Shown here: positions 1-5,360 of the stretch, in pieces
Layout: every line of letters begins with the position of its first letter
Position numbering within the stretch: the first letter of the stretch is position 1
Assembly (NCBI GenBank): GCA_903922545.1
Contig: CAIXUE010000047.1
Span: 1-6,450, forward strand
Reading direction: 5' to 3'
DNA from: an uncultured Alphaproteobacteria bacterium
Lineage (GTDB): Bacteria > Pseudomonadota > Alphaproteobacteria > Micropepsales > Micropepsaceae
Length of the DNA: 6,450 nt
Translations under genes and position numbers: made by a program
Notes under the pieces: generated by a model
What the model saw: only the letters and a program-made list of their open reading frames with translations
Databases searched by the model: none
What the model was told of the DNA's origin: nothing

Positions 1-891
1 CAGCCGAGCAAAGCCAAGACCCACAAAGCCTCTGACGACCAGCAGGTCGAGCGCCTGCACCAGGGTTACGCCCAGTCCATGGAGATCACCGAGGTTCTGG
101 CCGACGAGCGGAGCCAGTTCCAGCACATCCGCATCTTCGACACCGTCGCCAACGGGCGGGTGATGACACTGGATGACATCGTACAGATCACCAGCCGGGA
201 CGAGAGCGCTTATGCCGACATGCTCACCCATCTGCCCATGTTCGAACATGGCAAGGTGGAGCGGGTGATGATCGTGGGCGGCGGCGATCTTTCCATCGCC
301 GACGAAGCCCTCAAGCACAAAAACGTCAAGGAAGTGGTGCTGGTGGACATTGACGGCCAGGTGATCGAACTGTGCAAAAAGCTGTTCGGCGGCATCAACG
401 CCAAAGCCTTCAAGGACAAGCGCATGACCATCGAGGTGGCCGATGCGTTTGAATATCTGGGCCGCAAATCCAGCAAGAATCGCTTTGACCTGATCATCGC
501 GGACCGGCCCGATCCGGTGGGCCCCGGCAAAGCGCTGTTTGGCGAAACTTTCTATGACCGGGTGAAAGGCGCGCTGCGTCCGGGCGGCTATGCCACTTTC
601 CAGACCGGCGTTCCTTTCTACCAGCCCTGGGAGATCACCGAGGCGCTGCAGGAACTCGCCCGCTTCTTTCCCCGCTCCGGCCTCTATCTGACCGTGGTGC
701 CGACTTACATCGGTGGCTTCATGGCCCTGTCCTGGGCGACCAAGGGCGGCAAACCGCTGGGCACGCCCGCCGGCATCAAGAAGGCCGCCAGCGCCTACAA
801 GCGCGCCAAGCTCAAATGCGAATATTACAATCCGTCGGTGCATGCCGCGGCTTTCGCGCTGCCGAACTGGATCCAGAAGCTGGTGCCTTGA
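1..891 (+). CDS. Spermidine synthase-family aminopropyltransferase-like protein, 5' end outside the window
   Basis: The frame is open from base 1 with no ATG, GTG or TTG before the internal ATG at 79. Family similarity already begins before that ATG (LHQGYAQS, visible residues 19-26), so the true start lies to the left and 296 residues are visible. The family transfers an aminopropyl group from decarboxylated S-adenosylmethionine to a diamine, normally putrescine, in the cytosol. Conserved elements are the N-terminal beta region (GRVMTLDDIVQ, 52-62), the Rossmann nucleotide loop GGGD (93-96), the acidic VDID (115-118), the catalytic-type DRPDPVGP (168-175), PTYIGG (234-239) and the C-terminal YYNPSVHAAAFALP (275-288). 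Two family motifs are altered: the usual YHE is YAD (71-73) and GGGDG is GGGDL. The aminopropyltransferase fold is secure. The substrate is not, so I withhold the symbol speE. The next gene overlaps the stop codon. Confidence 0.88.
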   Translation, partial: QPSKAKTHKASDDQQVERLHQGYAQSMEITEVLADERSQFQHIRIFDTVANGRVMTLDDIVQITSRDESAYADMLTHLPMFEHGKVERVMIVGGGDLSIADEALKHKNVKEVVLVDIDGQVIELCKKLFGGINAKAFKDKRMTIEVADAFEYLGRKSSKNRFDLIIADRPDPVGPGKALFGETFYDRVKGALRPGGYATFQTGVPFYQPWEITEALQELARFFPRSGLYLTVVPTYIGGFMALSWATKGGKPLGTPAGIKKAASAYKRAKLKCEYYNPSVHAAAFALPNWIQKLVP

Positions 892-2301: not shown

Positions 2302-2954
2302 TGCAGCATAGCTATCACAGCTTCGCCGACCTGCCGGGCAGTTTGCCGGTATTCCCGCTTTCCGGCGTGCTGCTTCTGCCGCGCGCCGCCCTGCCGCTGA
2401 ATGTGTTTGAGCCACGCTATCTGGAAATGGTCGATGACGTGCTGCGCAGCAACCGGCTGATCGGCATCATCCAGCCGGTGGAAAGCGAAGACACGGTGCT
2501 CAAGCCCAAACTTTCCCAGGTCGGCTGCGCCGGGCGCATCATTTCCTGGCGCGAGAGCGAAGATAACCGTTATCTCATCACCCTGGCGGGACTTTGCCGG
2601 TTTAAAGTGAAAGAAGAGATTTCCGCTTTGTCCACGTACCGACAGGTGGCATGCGATTTCGCGCCTTTCGCCGGCGATCTGGCGCAGGGCGCCGATGATG
2701 CCGACTTTCCCCGCGAGAGACTGCTGCAGGCGCTGAAGGATTATCTGATGCGCCGTGACATGAAGGCGGACTGGAAAAGCGTGATGACCGCGCCAGCCGA
2801 ATCCCTGGTCAATGCGCTGGCCATGATGTGCCCCTTCGAGCCGGCCGAAAAACAGGCCCTGCTGGAGGCGCCGAGCTGGCCGGAACGGGTTTCCACCCTG
2901 GTGGCGCTCTTGGAAATTTCCACCCTGGGCCAAGGCCCCGGAACGCTCAACTGA
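2301..2954 (+). CDS. Lon protease N-terminal (substrate-binding) domain protein without a protease
   Basis: The product has 217 residues. The N-terminal half matches the LON substrate-binding (PUA-like) domain: [34 protein letters not shown] runs across residues 15-48, followed by IGIIQP (54-59), VGCAGRI (74-80) and [13 protein letters not shown] (91-103). The C-terminal half is helical (about 138-208). No Walker motif and no Ser-Lys protease dyad are present, so this is the stand-alone LonN form common in proteobacteria, whose role is not well defined. It may bind misfolded proteins or act as an adaptor. The frame is open upstream inside cnoX, but ATG at 2301 gives the family N-terminus and overlaps the cnoX stop by one base (TGATG). 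There is no clear ribosome binding site, so translational coupling to cnoX is likely. Confidence 0.9.
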
Positions 2955-3139
2955 TGGAAACCGATCCCAAGCTGCTTGAAATACTCATCTGTCCGGTGAC
3001 GCGCACCACGCTGCACTTTGACCGCGACAAGCAGGAACTGATTTCCAAAGCCGCGGGCCTGGCCTTTCCCATTCGCGGCGGCGTGCCCATCATGCTCCCG
3101 GCCGAGGCGCGCGAGCTTTCCGACCTTGAGCGCCAATAA
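2954..3139 (+). CDS. Trm112 family protein (YcaR-like)
   Basis: This is a 61-residue protein of the normal length for bacterial Trm112-like proteins. It has the expected [11 protein letters not shown] near the N-terminus (about residues 6-16), the acidic/basic strand [12 protein letters not shown] and the closing [20 protein letters not shown]. In eukaryotes and archaea Trm112 activates tRNA, rRNA and release-factor methyltransferases. The bacterial protein is thought to be related, but its partner here is unknown. Only one cysteine is left (CPVT instead of CPxC), so a zinc site is unlikely, as in many bacterial members. The start ATG at 2954 shares its A with the upstream TGA, and the frame extending left to 2828 is only shadow sequence of the LonN gene. 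GGAAC about 10 bases upstream is at best a weak ribosome binding site. Confidence 0.88.
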
Positions 3140-3441
3140 TGTCCTGGCCGGCGGAACTGCGACTGAATTCCGAAAAGAATATTCTCACCATCCTGTTTGA
3201 GGATGGCGCGCGCCACGCTTTGCCTGCCGAAATGCTGCGCGTTGAAAGCCCTTCCGCCGAAGTGCGCGGCCATGGCGGCAGCACCAAACCGCCGCCCGTG
3301 ACGGGCAAGCAAAATGTGAAAATCGCCCGGCTGGAGCCGGTGGGCAATTACGCCGTGCGCATCGTGTTCGATGATGGCCATGACAGCGGGCTTTACAGCT
3401 GGGATTATCTGGACAAGCTTGGCCGCGAGCAGTCCCGATGA
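3139..3441 (+). CDS. DUF971 family protein
   Basis: The product is 100 residues of the DUF971 domain, the same fold as the N-terminal domain of gamma-butyrobetaine hydroxylase. Seen features are WPAELRLN at the start, LTILFEDGARHALPAEMLR (about 16-34), the central SPSAEVRGHGG, VKIARLEPVGNYAVRIVFDDGHDSGLYSWDYL (60-91) and a short basic tail. GLYSWDYL is close to the family hallmark G-I/L-Y-S/T-W-x-x-L. Stand-alone DUF971 proteins sit near iron-sulfur or protein-maintenance genes in several bacteria, but no activity is established and I infer none. The ATG at 3139 shares its A with the trm112 stop (TAATG), and its own stop overlaps the channel gene by four bases (ATGA). No strong ribosome binding site is visible. 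Confidence 0.88.
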   Translation: MSWPAELRLNSEKNILTILFEDGARHALPAEMLRVESPSAEVRGHGGSTKPPPVTGKQNVKIARLEPVGNYAVRIVFDDGHDSGLYSWDYLDKLGREQSR

Positions 3442-4328
3442 GCGATATTATTCCCCCGCCCAAGAAACGCCGCGTCAGCATCGCCCGCGCGCCGGTGCGC
3501 GCGCGCGTCGCTATCGTCAAGGGTCAGGATTCTGGCCGCTTCACCGATTTCTATCATGCCGTACTCACCGGCAACTGGCTGGTCTTCATCCTGCAGCTGG
3601 GCGTGCTGTTCGTATCGGTGAATGTGGTGTTCGCCACGCTTTTTCTGCTGGACCCAGGCGGCATTTCCAACGCCGCGCCGGGCAGCTTCACCGATGCCTT
3701 TTTCTTCAGCGTTCAGACATTGGGCGCGGGTGGCGGCGACATGGCGCCCAAGGATCTGTACACCGATGTGCTGGTGGCGGTGGAAAGTTTTTTCGGCATT
3801 CTCACCATCGCGGTGTTCGCCGGCCTGATGTTCGCGCGCTTTTCACGGCCGCTGTCGCGGGTGGTGTTCTCCAAGACCTCCGTGGTGGCGCCGTTCGACG
3901 GCGTGCCGACCCTGATGTTCCGCGCCGCCAACCAGCGCGGCAATTCCATCCTGGATGCATCCGTGACGGTATCGCTGGCGCGGCAATACACCACCCAGGA
4001 AGGCGTGGAGATGCGCCGCTTCCACGAATTGAAGCTGCTGCGCTCTTCCAATCCTCTTTTCGTGCTGAGCTGGACGGTGATGCATCCCATCGACAAGGAC
4101 AGCCCGCTTTACGGCCTGTCGCCGGAAGAGATGGCGGCGGAAGAAATGGAAATCGTGGTCATGCTGTCGGGCATGGACGAGACCATCGCCGACCATATCT
4201 TTTCGCGTCACGCCTATTGGCATGATGAAATCCAGTGGCACCGGCGTTTTGTAGATGTGATCTCGGTGGCGCCCAGCGGGCACCGGGTGCTGGATCTCAC
4301 CCATTTCCACGACACCAAAAAAGCCTAG
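3438..4328 (+). CDS. KirBac-type inward rectifier channel homologue with a non-canonical selectivity filter
   Basis: The product has 296 residues, close to the length of KirBac3.1. Layout: a basic N-terminus (8-28), an amphipathic slide helix (about 34-46, TDFYHAVL), membrane helix M1 (47-71), pore helix PGSFTDAFFFSVQT (81-94), filter loop (94-103), M2 (109-134) ending in ARFSRP, and a cytoplasmic Ig-like domain (about 140-290) with SWTVMHPID (211-219), FHELKLLRSSNP and VLDLTHFHD near the end. These match KirBac3.1 closely as I recall it. The filter does not: where KirBac3.1 has T-M-A-T-I-G-Y-G-K this protein has T-L-G-A-G-G-G-D (94-101), so the tyrosine is lost and the loop is one residue shorter. 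Family assignment is secure, but potassium selectivity cannot be assumed. Translation is probably coupled to DUF971 through the ATGA overlap. Confidence 0.9.
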   Translation: MSDIIPPPKKRRVSIARAPVRARVAIVKGQDSGRFTDFYHAVLTGNWLVFILQLGVLFVSVNVVFATLFLLDPGGISNAAPGSFTDAFFFSVQTLGAGGGDMAPKDLYTDVLVAVESFFGILTIAVFAGLMFARFSRPLSRVVFSKTSVVAPFDGVPTLMFRAANQRGNSILDASVTVSLARQYTTQEGVEMRRFHELKLLRSSNPLFVLSWTVMHPIDKDSPLYGLSPEEMAAEEMEIVVMLSGMDETIADHIFSRHAYWHDEIQWHRRFVDVISVAPSGHRVLDLTHFHDTKKA

Positions 4329-5356
4329 GCGTCCACGCCCACCGCTTCGGTCACGGATTTAAATCCGTCCCGTTCCAGCAGCGCGATCAGTTCGCGCTTG
4401 ATGCGGTTCACCAGTCCCGGACCCTGATAGACCAGCGCGGTGTAAAGCTGCACCAGCGAAGCGCCGGCGCGGATCTTGGCATAGGCATCTTCGCCGGATG
4501 AAATGCCGCCTGCGCCGATCAGCACAATGGATGAACCAAGACGCCGGCGCATCTGGCGCAGGATTTCCGTAGAAGGCTGGAGCAGCGGCTTGCCGGAAAG
4601 ACCGCCCGCTTCGCCCGCATGGGAAGAACGCAGCGCCGGCCGGGCGATGGTGGTGTTGGAAACAATCAGGCCTTCGATGCCGCTGGCCCGCACCACGGCG
4701 GCGATATCATCCAGCGCATGGCCGTCCAGATCGGGCGCGATCTTCAGCAGCAACGAAATCCTGTTTTTGCGCGCGCCGGTCAGGGCATCCAGAAGACGCG
4801 TCAGCTCTTCGCGATTCTGCAGGCCGCGCAGGCCGGGCGTGTTGGGCGACGACACATTCACCGTCACATAGTCGGCCAGTAACGACAACAGCGCGAAGGC
4901 GTGGACATAATCGCTGATGCGGTCGGCACTGTCTTTGTTGGCGCCGATATTGATGCCGACAAGGCGCGGGCCCCGCCCCGCCAGATTGCGCGCCGCCGCC
5001 GCCATGCCCAGATTGTTGAAACCCATGCGGTTGATCACTGCGCCATCTTCCGTCAATCGGAACAGGCGGGGCCGGGGATTGCCAATTTGCGGGCGCGGCG
5101 TGACCGTGCCGCATTCGACAAAACCGAAACCCAATTTGCCCATGGCCGGGGCCACGGCCGCATTCTTGTCAAAGCCGGCGGCAAGCCCCACCGGATTGGG
5201 AAAGGAAAGACCCAGCGCCGTCACCTTCAGGCGCGGATCATCGCCTGGCGGCTGCGGCAAAAGCGGCCCCGCTATGCGGGTCAACGCCAGGGTGGCGTTG
5301 TGCGCGCTCTCGGCGGGCAACAGGCGCAAAAAGCTGGCGGCAAAATCCAGGATCAT
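4325..5356 (-). CDS. pyrD: Dihydroorotate dehydrogenase (quinone), class 2
   Basis: This is a 343-residue enzyme that oxidises dihydroorotate to orotate with FMN and passes electrons to membrane quinone, the fourth step of pyrimidine synthesis. Class 2 features are the helical N-terminal membrane/quinone-binding segment (2-30), NPVGLAAGFDKN with K64, the substrate motif NRMGFNN (N109), NVSSPNTPGLRGLQ with the catalytic serine S170 and N167/N172, LLLKIAPD (K205), VSNTT (232-236), and the phosphate-binding IGAGGISSGEDA (280-291) and GASLVQLYTALVYQGP (298-313). All key residues are present. I chose ATG at 5356 because AAGAGG lies at 5362-5367, five bases away. A TTG just before it, at 5359, would be too close. 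It follows the TPR gene by nine bases and is likely in one operon with it. Its stop overlaps the convergent channel gene. Confidence 0.96.
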   Translation of the reverse strand: MILDFAASFLRLLPAESAHNATLALTRIAGPLLPQPPGDDPRLKVTALGLSFPNPVGLAAGFDKNAAVAPAMGKLGFGFVECGTVTPRPQIGNPRPRLFRLTEDGAVINRMGFNNLGMAAAARNLAGRGPRLVGINIGANKDSADRISDYVHAFALLSLLADYVTVNVSSPNTPGLRGLQNREELTRLLDALTGARKNRISLLLKIAPDLDGHALDDIAAVVRASGIEGLIVSNTTIARPALRSSHAGEAGGLSGKPLLQPSTEILRQMRRRLGSSIVLIGAGGISSGEDAYAKIRAGASLVQLYTALVYQGPGLVNRIKRELIALLERDGFKSVTEAVGVDA

Positions 5357-5360
5357 CAAT

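Follow-up and report, generated by a model that had tools for sequence, protein, structure and literature searches.

A KirBac-type channel gene with a rewritten selectivity filter and repeated filter turnover in the Micropepsales

The stretch of DNA analysed here (6,450 nucleotides; hereafter the window) encodes a KirBac-type protein in which a short run of glycine and alanine closed by an acidic residue stands in place of the potassium filter, and the resulting channel probably passes ions other than, or besides, potassium. The gene belongs to an order-wide family with cultured members in which the filter was rewritten repeatedly while the gene, its neighbourhood and its gating domain were kept. 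In K+ channels the TxGYG filter is regarded as all but unchangeable, and its turnover across a whole order is the part of these results likely to surprise specialists. Related canonical and changed scaffolds form a natural mutational series, one that allows direct measurement of how filter chemistry relates to selectivity. They also make one ask what advantage the loss of K+ selectivity in this gene could bring to a cell.

The kir gene and its filter

An intact open reading frame at 3438–4328 (+) encodes a 296-aa protein that ORF structure, Pfam, phmmer and Foldseek together identify as Kir/KirBac-type; metagenome DNA is the sole record of the source bacterium. Pfam IRK_C matches the C-terminal domain (E=1.6e-31), placing a cytoplasmic Kir gating domain at residues 142–295 (3861–4322, +). 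The protein matches KirBac3.1 in a phmmer comparison with PDB sequences (E=1.6e-71), and the KirBac3.1 structure is the top Foldseek match of its AlphaFold model (E=1.8e-34, 44% identity). That model (mean pLDDT 80.8, pTM 0.60) has a beta-rich cytoplasmic domain, an N-terminal helix at residues 35–44 (3540–3569, +), which we take by homology to be the slide helix, TM1 at residues 47–69 (3576–3644, +), an intact pore helix at residues 84–95 (3687–3722, +) and TM2, the inner helix, at residues 107–135 (3756–3842, +). Alignment places the group-specific residues A128 and M131 of the inner helix beside F132, whose equivalent in KirBac3.1, Tyr132, has a role in the gate. The window model was built from an 85-sequence alignment and that of a canonical sister, P0061, used as a control, from 73 sequences; both are monomer models, which cannot show a pore. 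Two transmembrane helices, a P-loop and IRK_C, as expected of the Kir/KirBac family, are thus all present by Pfam, model and PDB matches, and the TxG[Y/F]G filter of the family is replaced by TLGAGGGD. The Pfam pore models PF01007 (IRK) and PF07885 (Ion_trans_2) gave no match to the window protein at E<=0.001; both match P0061.

The rewritten filter, T94-L-G-A-G-G-G-D101, is encoded in frame by codons ACA TTG GGC GCG GGT GGC GGC GAC at 3717–3740 (+) and is preceded by the intact pore helix PGSFTDAFFFSVQ. KirBac3.1 aligns at the filter site with SVQTMATIGYGK. A first-pass annotation made from the letters of the window had reported these codons, the intact helix and the KirBac3.1 filter, and all three accounts agree with the open reading frame and the alignment. 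The sister group carries TLGTLGYGV at the same place, relative to which the window filter is one codon shorter, lacks the tyrosine and has an acidic end. Two alignments had been put forward, one with the pore helix essentially intact and one with the helix three residues shorter. The AlphaFold monomers place the helix at residues 84–95 in the window protein and 80–92 (window 84–96) in P0061, a near-equality that would locate the lost residue at the helix end or in the filter; the helix-intact alignment is favoured over the shorter helix on this modelled evidence, which is weak because both models are monomers. The corresponding codons of a canonical relative (L002) are ACG CTG GGC ACG CTG GGC TAT GGC, so that a lost codon, a T-to-A and a Y-to-G change would all be needed between the two. 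A single indel is therefore insufficient to restore a canonical filter, as the annotation had argued.

A conserved filter type and apparent domain exchange

We define A-type filters as GA-G[G/S/A][G/S][D/E], lacking tyrosine and one residue short. They occur in 31 homologues, including the window protein, among the 120 matches listed of 4403, which makes the filter more than a chance occurrence and supplies the set of GAGGG-type filters that the first-pass annotation had proposed to look for. The other 30 proteins, all metagenomic, are 69–84% identical to the window protein, which is itself present on three contigs. Mean majority-residue frequency over positions 94–101 is 0.95 in A-type proteins and 0.96 in canonical sisters, and among six compared segments of the A-type, conservation is highest at the filter. 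The corresponding value for the A-type cytoplasmic domain is 0.87; for segment 102–138, just past the filter, it is 0.87 in A-type proteins versus 0.94 in the sisters. The reading of the window gene as something other than simple decay holds up, with the ORF and fold intact and the filter this well conserved. Pairwise dN/dS between the window gene and its canonical relatives L103, L104, L002, L106 and L105 is 0.27–0.34; the 22 closest Micropepsales Kir pairs give 0.13–0.44, among them 0.20 for L014/L019, whose S-I-N-Y-S/T-like filters we call B-type.

The sharpest switches listed between the 31 A-type and 128 canonical proteins are A97 (T in 128/128 canonical relatives), G99 (Y in 128/128), M131 (I in 126, L in 2), D/E101, A128 (T in 125, A in 3) and F119 (S, T, A or G). 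Position 101 is D or E in 31/31 A-type proteins and V in 92, A in 32, D in 3 and S in 1 of the canonical sisters. The pattern at A128, M131 and D101 may in part simply reflect descent from one ancestral pore module. Phe119, found in 26/31 A-type proteins, was considered as a substitute for the lost filter tyrosine and rejected, since B-type pores that keep the tyrosine often carry Phe119 too. A further variant, TLGAGAGGE (L001 and P0114), has canonical length and combines glycine and alanine only with an acid, E ending the filter in 2/2. All A-type sequences found here come from metagenomes: none was detected in the 96 Micropepsales genomes scanned, nor among the best 80 of 137 relatives retrieved from 84,980 species genomes, although one scan pattern, FAG[IL]MFAR, fits all A-type rows.

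Trees of the pore and cytoplasmic domains (53 rows, filter columns excluded) disagree. The pore-domain tree groups 28 A-type and 2 GAGAGGE rows together (support 94, not starred), a grouping that the cytoplasmic-domain tree rejects (p-AU 1e-35). This conflict points to recombination, and pore and cytoplasmic domains seem, from these sequences, to have been exchanged. Segment comparison finds a canonical-type pore joined to an A-type cytoplasmic domain in P0022 and the reverse arrangement in P0029, P0030, P0031 and P0033, with the switch after about residue 138–170. Chimeric assembly is a possible alternative for the single short contigs (P0022, P0029) and explains the related P0030, P0031 and P0033 less easily. 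We also considered whether the A-type arose once; the whole-protein tree does not show this, with five changes, four of them forced by starred branches.

Filter turnover across the Micropepsales

A Kir gene is present in 42 of 96 Micropepsales genomes (E<=1e-15). With canonical defined as [T/S/G]-x-G-[Y/F]-G, 13 of these genes are canonical (five with S-I-G-Y-G) and 29 are non-canonical, comprising 25 B-type (S-I-N-Y-S/T and kin), three shortened and one GAGAGGE filter. A tree of neighbouring genes requires at least seven changes between canonical and non-canonical filters, five of them forced by starred branches. The window filter does not stand alone, filter changes having recurred in the order. 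Alphaproteobacterial Kir genes from outside the Micropepsales have G-Y-G in 10/10 cases (nine TxGYG, one SxGYG), in an even draw of 385 genomes that yielded 13 with a Kir match, three of them Micropepsales. One of these ten genes (G140) has an internal stop; the Kir matches of 42/42 Kir-bearing Micropepsales genomes have none.

A wider set of 372 Kir proteins, biased in that it was gathered around three queries, divides into 218 canonical, 104 B-type, 31 A-type, 14 D-[K/N]-[S/P], three shortened and two GAGAGGE filters. In the B-type the first GYG glycine is replaced by Asn (95/104) and the second by Ser or Thr (101/104), and the tyrosine is kept. B-type genes occur in the cultured Rhizomicrobium electricum (L014:7959-8837; P0156) and R. 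palustre (P0210), and another Micropepsales filter (L018) reads T-I-S-Y-T. The charged-filter class, S-V-D-K-S followed by D, E or A, comprises P0217, P0222, P0229, P0230, P0233, P0235, P0237, P0240, P0243, P0257 and P0261, the first of which bears the name of a Rhizomicrobium sp. MAG. The shortened filters read S-V-N-T (L004), S-V-N-S (L012) and S-S-N-A (L120), and in these proteins alanine also replaces the conserved proline that follows the filter. Two S-I-G-Y-G proteins, L114 and L117 (genomes G045 and G067), lie among S-I-N-Y-S relatives in both the Kir and neighbour-gene trees, a nesting that suggests reversion or repeated loss.

Within the window, kir is the final gene of a tightly overlapping row on the forward strand. 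The row, assigned from ORFs, Pfam and neighbourhood, begins with a thioredoxin-TPR gene (1345–2301, +), CnoX-like, and continues with a Lon substrate-binding-domain gene, lonN (2301–2954, +), a Trm112-like gene (2954–3139, +; Pfam PF03966, E=5.9e-16) and a DUF971 gene (Pfam GBBH-like_N; 3139–3441, +), the end of which overlaps the kir start by four bases (ATGA). Dihydroorotate dehydrogenase (pyrD; Pfam, neighbourhood) is the convergent neighbour (4325–5359, −). Upstream of the row, the listed start of a DUF4345 ORF (816–1268) overlaps the end of a spermidine synthase-like gene (79–891), and its true start may lie downstream. Homologues of thioredoxin-TPR, lonN and DUF971 surround kir in 39 of the 42 Kir-bearing Micropepsales genomes, whether the filter is canonical or not; the exceptions are G009 and G011, with pyrD alone near kir, and G029, with none of these genes. 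A few Micropepsales kir genes sit 1–3 kb from DUF971. We considered whether special neighbours set the role of the changed channel and rejected this for the window's own neighbours, the genes compared, because canonical and changed kir genes share this flanking row.

In a tree of the thioredoxin-TPR, lonN and DUF971 proteins (40 rows), the window adjoins G002 (84% identity; support 85, not starred), whose kir gene has a canonical TLGTLGYGA filter. Both belong to an eight-row group with G001, G003, G053, G063, G044 and G060 (support 100). The first-pass annotation had held that a canonical filter in close relatives of the same genus would refute a real change. G002, with TLGYG, comes near to this case; together with the 30 changed-filter proteins, however, its canonical filter points to a switch of filter rather than an error.

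At E<=1e-15 each Kir-bearing genome holds one Kir gene (22/22 and 42/42 Micropepsales genomes), which makes a canonical partner subunit unlikely. A mixed tetramer with such a partner was rejected, as no second full Kir match was found in these genomes, many of which are drafts and all of which come from outside the A-type; G064 holds an extra 77-residue C-terminal Kir piece. Another Ion_trans_2 channel is present in 27 of the 29 non-canonical genomes (all except G001 and G008), and 23 of the 30 Ion_trans_2 loci examined there fit a loose TxGYG-type pattern, so other channels of these genomes may provide K+-selective conduction. We tentatively suggest, as an idea with somewhat less than an even chance of being right, that the single Micropepsales Kir locus is a natural site of selectivity switching. 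At least five filter classes (x-G-Y-G; S-I-N-Y-S; D-K-S; Gly/Ala plus acid; shortened forms) would interchange there by mutation and by pore/cytoplasmic recombination, each under purifying selection with its own ion preference.

Natural exceptions to the Kir filter found in print, within open-licence PMC literature, amount to a few proteins (NirBac, TbIRK). The same literature yielded no survey of such Kir filters and no joint mention of Rhizomicrobium and an inward rectifier; a GIRK4 filter variant also appears there in work mentioning NirBac. NirBac is a proven precedent (2015), to which the window adds a variant of that kind.

Predicted conduction and known systems

By analogy with NirBac, we favour a weakly selective or non-selective cation channel with Kir gating kept, a reading we consider moderately probable. 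The gene would be the Micropepsales counterpart of KirBac at its usual genomic place, with the K+ filter converted to G-A-G-G-G-D, and its product would still form a tetrameric cation channel of the NirBac type. Four Asp101 side chains could attract cations to the mouth. The tyrosine of a K+ filter props that filter open; a flexible, tyrosine-less G-A-G-G-G would not offer stacked carbonyl sites to take the place of the water around K+. The pore would then discriminate little between Na+ and K+, both of which would pass, perhaps along with further small monovalent cations. Opening would be timed by the Kir gate, through the bundle crossing, the cytoplasmic domain and anionic lipids. We infer that such a channel could, for example, let Na+ and K+ leak in a gated manner and so help the cell adjust its osmotic state or membrane potential. 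Open-licence PMC literature yielded neither flux nor current measurements on a Micropepsales channel.

Some of the alternatives question whether there is a working pore at all. Among relatives of the window identified by neighbouring genes, the closest have canonical filters, as expected if the window filter were a sequencing or assembly error or the gene a decaying pseudogene. The ORF is intact, however, the protein occurs on three contigs and 30 other proteins at 69–84% identity share the filter type. We ruled this explanation out on those proteins and on the conservation of the filter, and regard its chances as negligible; the first-pass annotation had argued against a sequencing error too. 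A Kir scaffold with a sealed pore, serving as a non-conducting sensor or scaffold, would agree with a filter one residue short, a shortening also seen in L004, L012 and L120 of the Micropepsales, and with the well-conserved cytoplasmic domain (0.87). A plugged pore would not be expected to have the most conserved filter segment with a strictly acidic end, though, nor do the concerted switch of near-gate residues and the canonical-length GAGAGGE variant, which retains Gly/Ala plus acid, sit easily with it, and we consider a sealed pore less likely, at about one chance in eight put loosely.

Other alternatives accept conduction and differ on the ion. The strict acid after the glycine tract would suit a pore in which the Asp101 ring selects another ion, such as Na+, H+, NH4+ or a divalent ion, and the D-K-S and N-Y-S chemistry of other classes hints at different ions. 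Against this, we know of no selective filter reading G-A-G-G-G-D. NirBac1.2, moreover, is reported to be impermeable to Ca2+ (PMC4607889), and we hold another-ion selectivity to be improbable. A preference for K+ could instead persist through an alternative filter geometry in which A-G-G-G carbonyls form fewer, looser sites and K+ is favoured several-fold. The remaining protein is that of a KirBac, TbIRK is a precedent with its GGYVG filter (PMC5429665), and KcsA G77A is described as selective in liposome flux (PMC11251424). TbIRK retains its tyrosine, however, whereas the window filter has none and is one residue short, and NirBacs with unrelated loops are reported as non-selective (PMC4607889); we think retained K+ preference unlikely, if conceivable. 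Because TbIRK and KcsA G77A keep selectivity, sequence alone leaves the selectivity of the window channel unsettled.

Our preferred reading, a NirBac-like channel of little or no selectivity, can be set against several known systems. NaK and CNG channels likewise depart naturally from TxGYG and are weakly selective, and NaK has an acidic residue in its filter. Both keep the filter length and have no Kir cytoplasmic domain, unlike the window protein. The Asp of NaK also lies inside the motif (TVGDGN; PMC9822992), whereas Asp101 stands at the filter end. Mutants of the first GYG glycine in GIRK2 (weaver), BK and Shaker are reported to lose selectivity (PMC11251424, PMC9001731). Weaver GIRK2 G156S, BK G354S and Shaker G376A are comparable to the S-I-N-Y-S class of the Micropepsales, but they are single mutations of canonical filters rather than natural conserved families, and KcsA G77A is reported to retain selectivity in flux assays (PMC11251424). 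TbIRK of Trypanosoma brucei resembles the window protein as an inward rectifier without the signature motif; it differs in being eukaryotic, in keeping the tyrosine of its GGYVG filter, which the window filter does not resemble, and in being moderately K+-selective (K+ over Na+ >7-fold, Ba2+-insensitive; PMC5429665). KirBac3.1 and KirBac1.1 share the fold, gate region and IRK_C domain, KirBac3.1 being the best structure match, but its TMATIGYGK stands opposite TLGA-GGGD, with the tyrosine gone and one residue fewer.

The NirBac precedent is the strongest support, by analogy, for a non-selective channel. NirBac1.1 and 1.2 of Anaeromyxobacter, with non-canonical P-loops, are reported to form oligomers of tetramer size and to be non-selective in 22Na+ flux, with more flux at 50% POPG, and NirBac2.1 of Gemmatimonas has the filter TTGTD (PMC4607889). 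These data, together with the glycine mutants (PMC11251424), fit the first-pass proposal of a poorly selective or non-potassium channel. NirBac belongs to a different phylum and has a different filter, and non-selectivity was measured there but is predicted here. The NirBac1.x loops are described as lacking homology to the KirBac1.1 loop (PMC4607889), whereas the window protein has an intact pore helix and a rewritten filter. The report likewise describes Anaeromyxobacter as having no other obvious K+ channel gene (PMC4607889), while most Micropepsales checked have another Ion_trans_2 channel. We use NirBac as a functional label only, the window protein's nearest relatives listed being A-type and canonical proteins. 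The window protein is a KirBac homologue with a non-canonical P-loop and filter, as NirBacs are defined, and the likeness extends from the KirBac architecture and the non-TxGYG P-loop to a filter that varies between close relatives, which the NirBac report also observed and suggested to be an evolutionary hotspot (PMC4607889).
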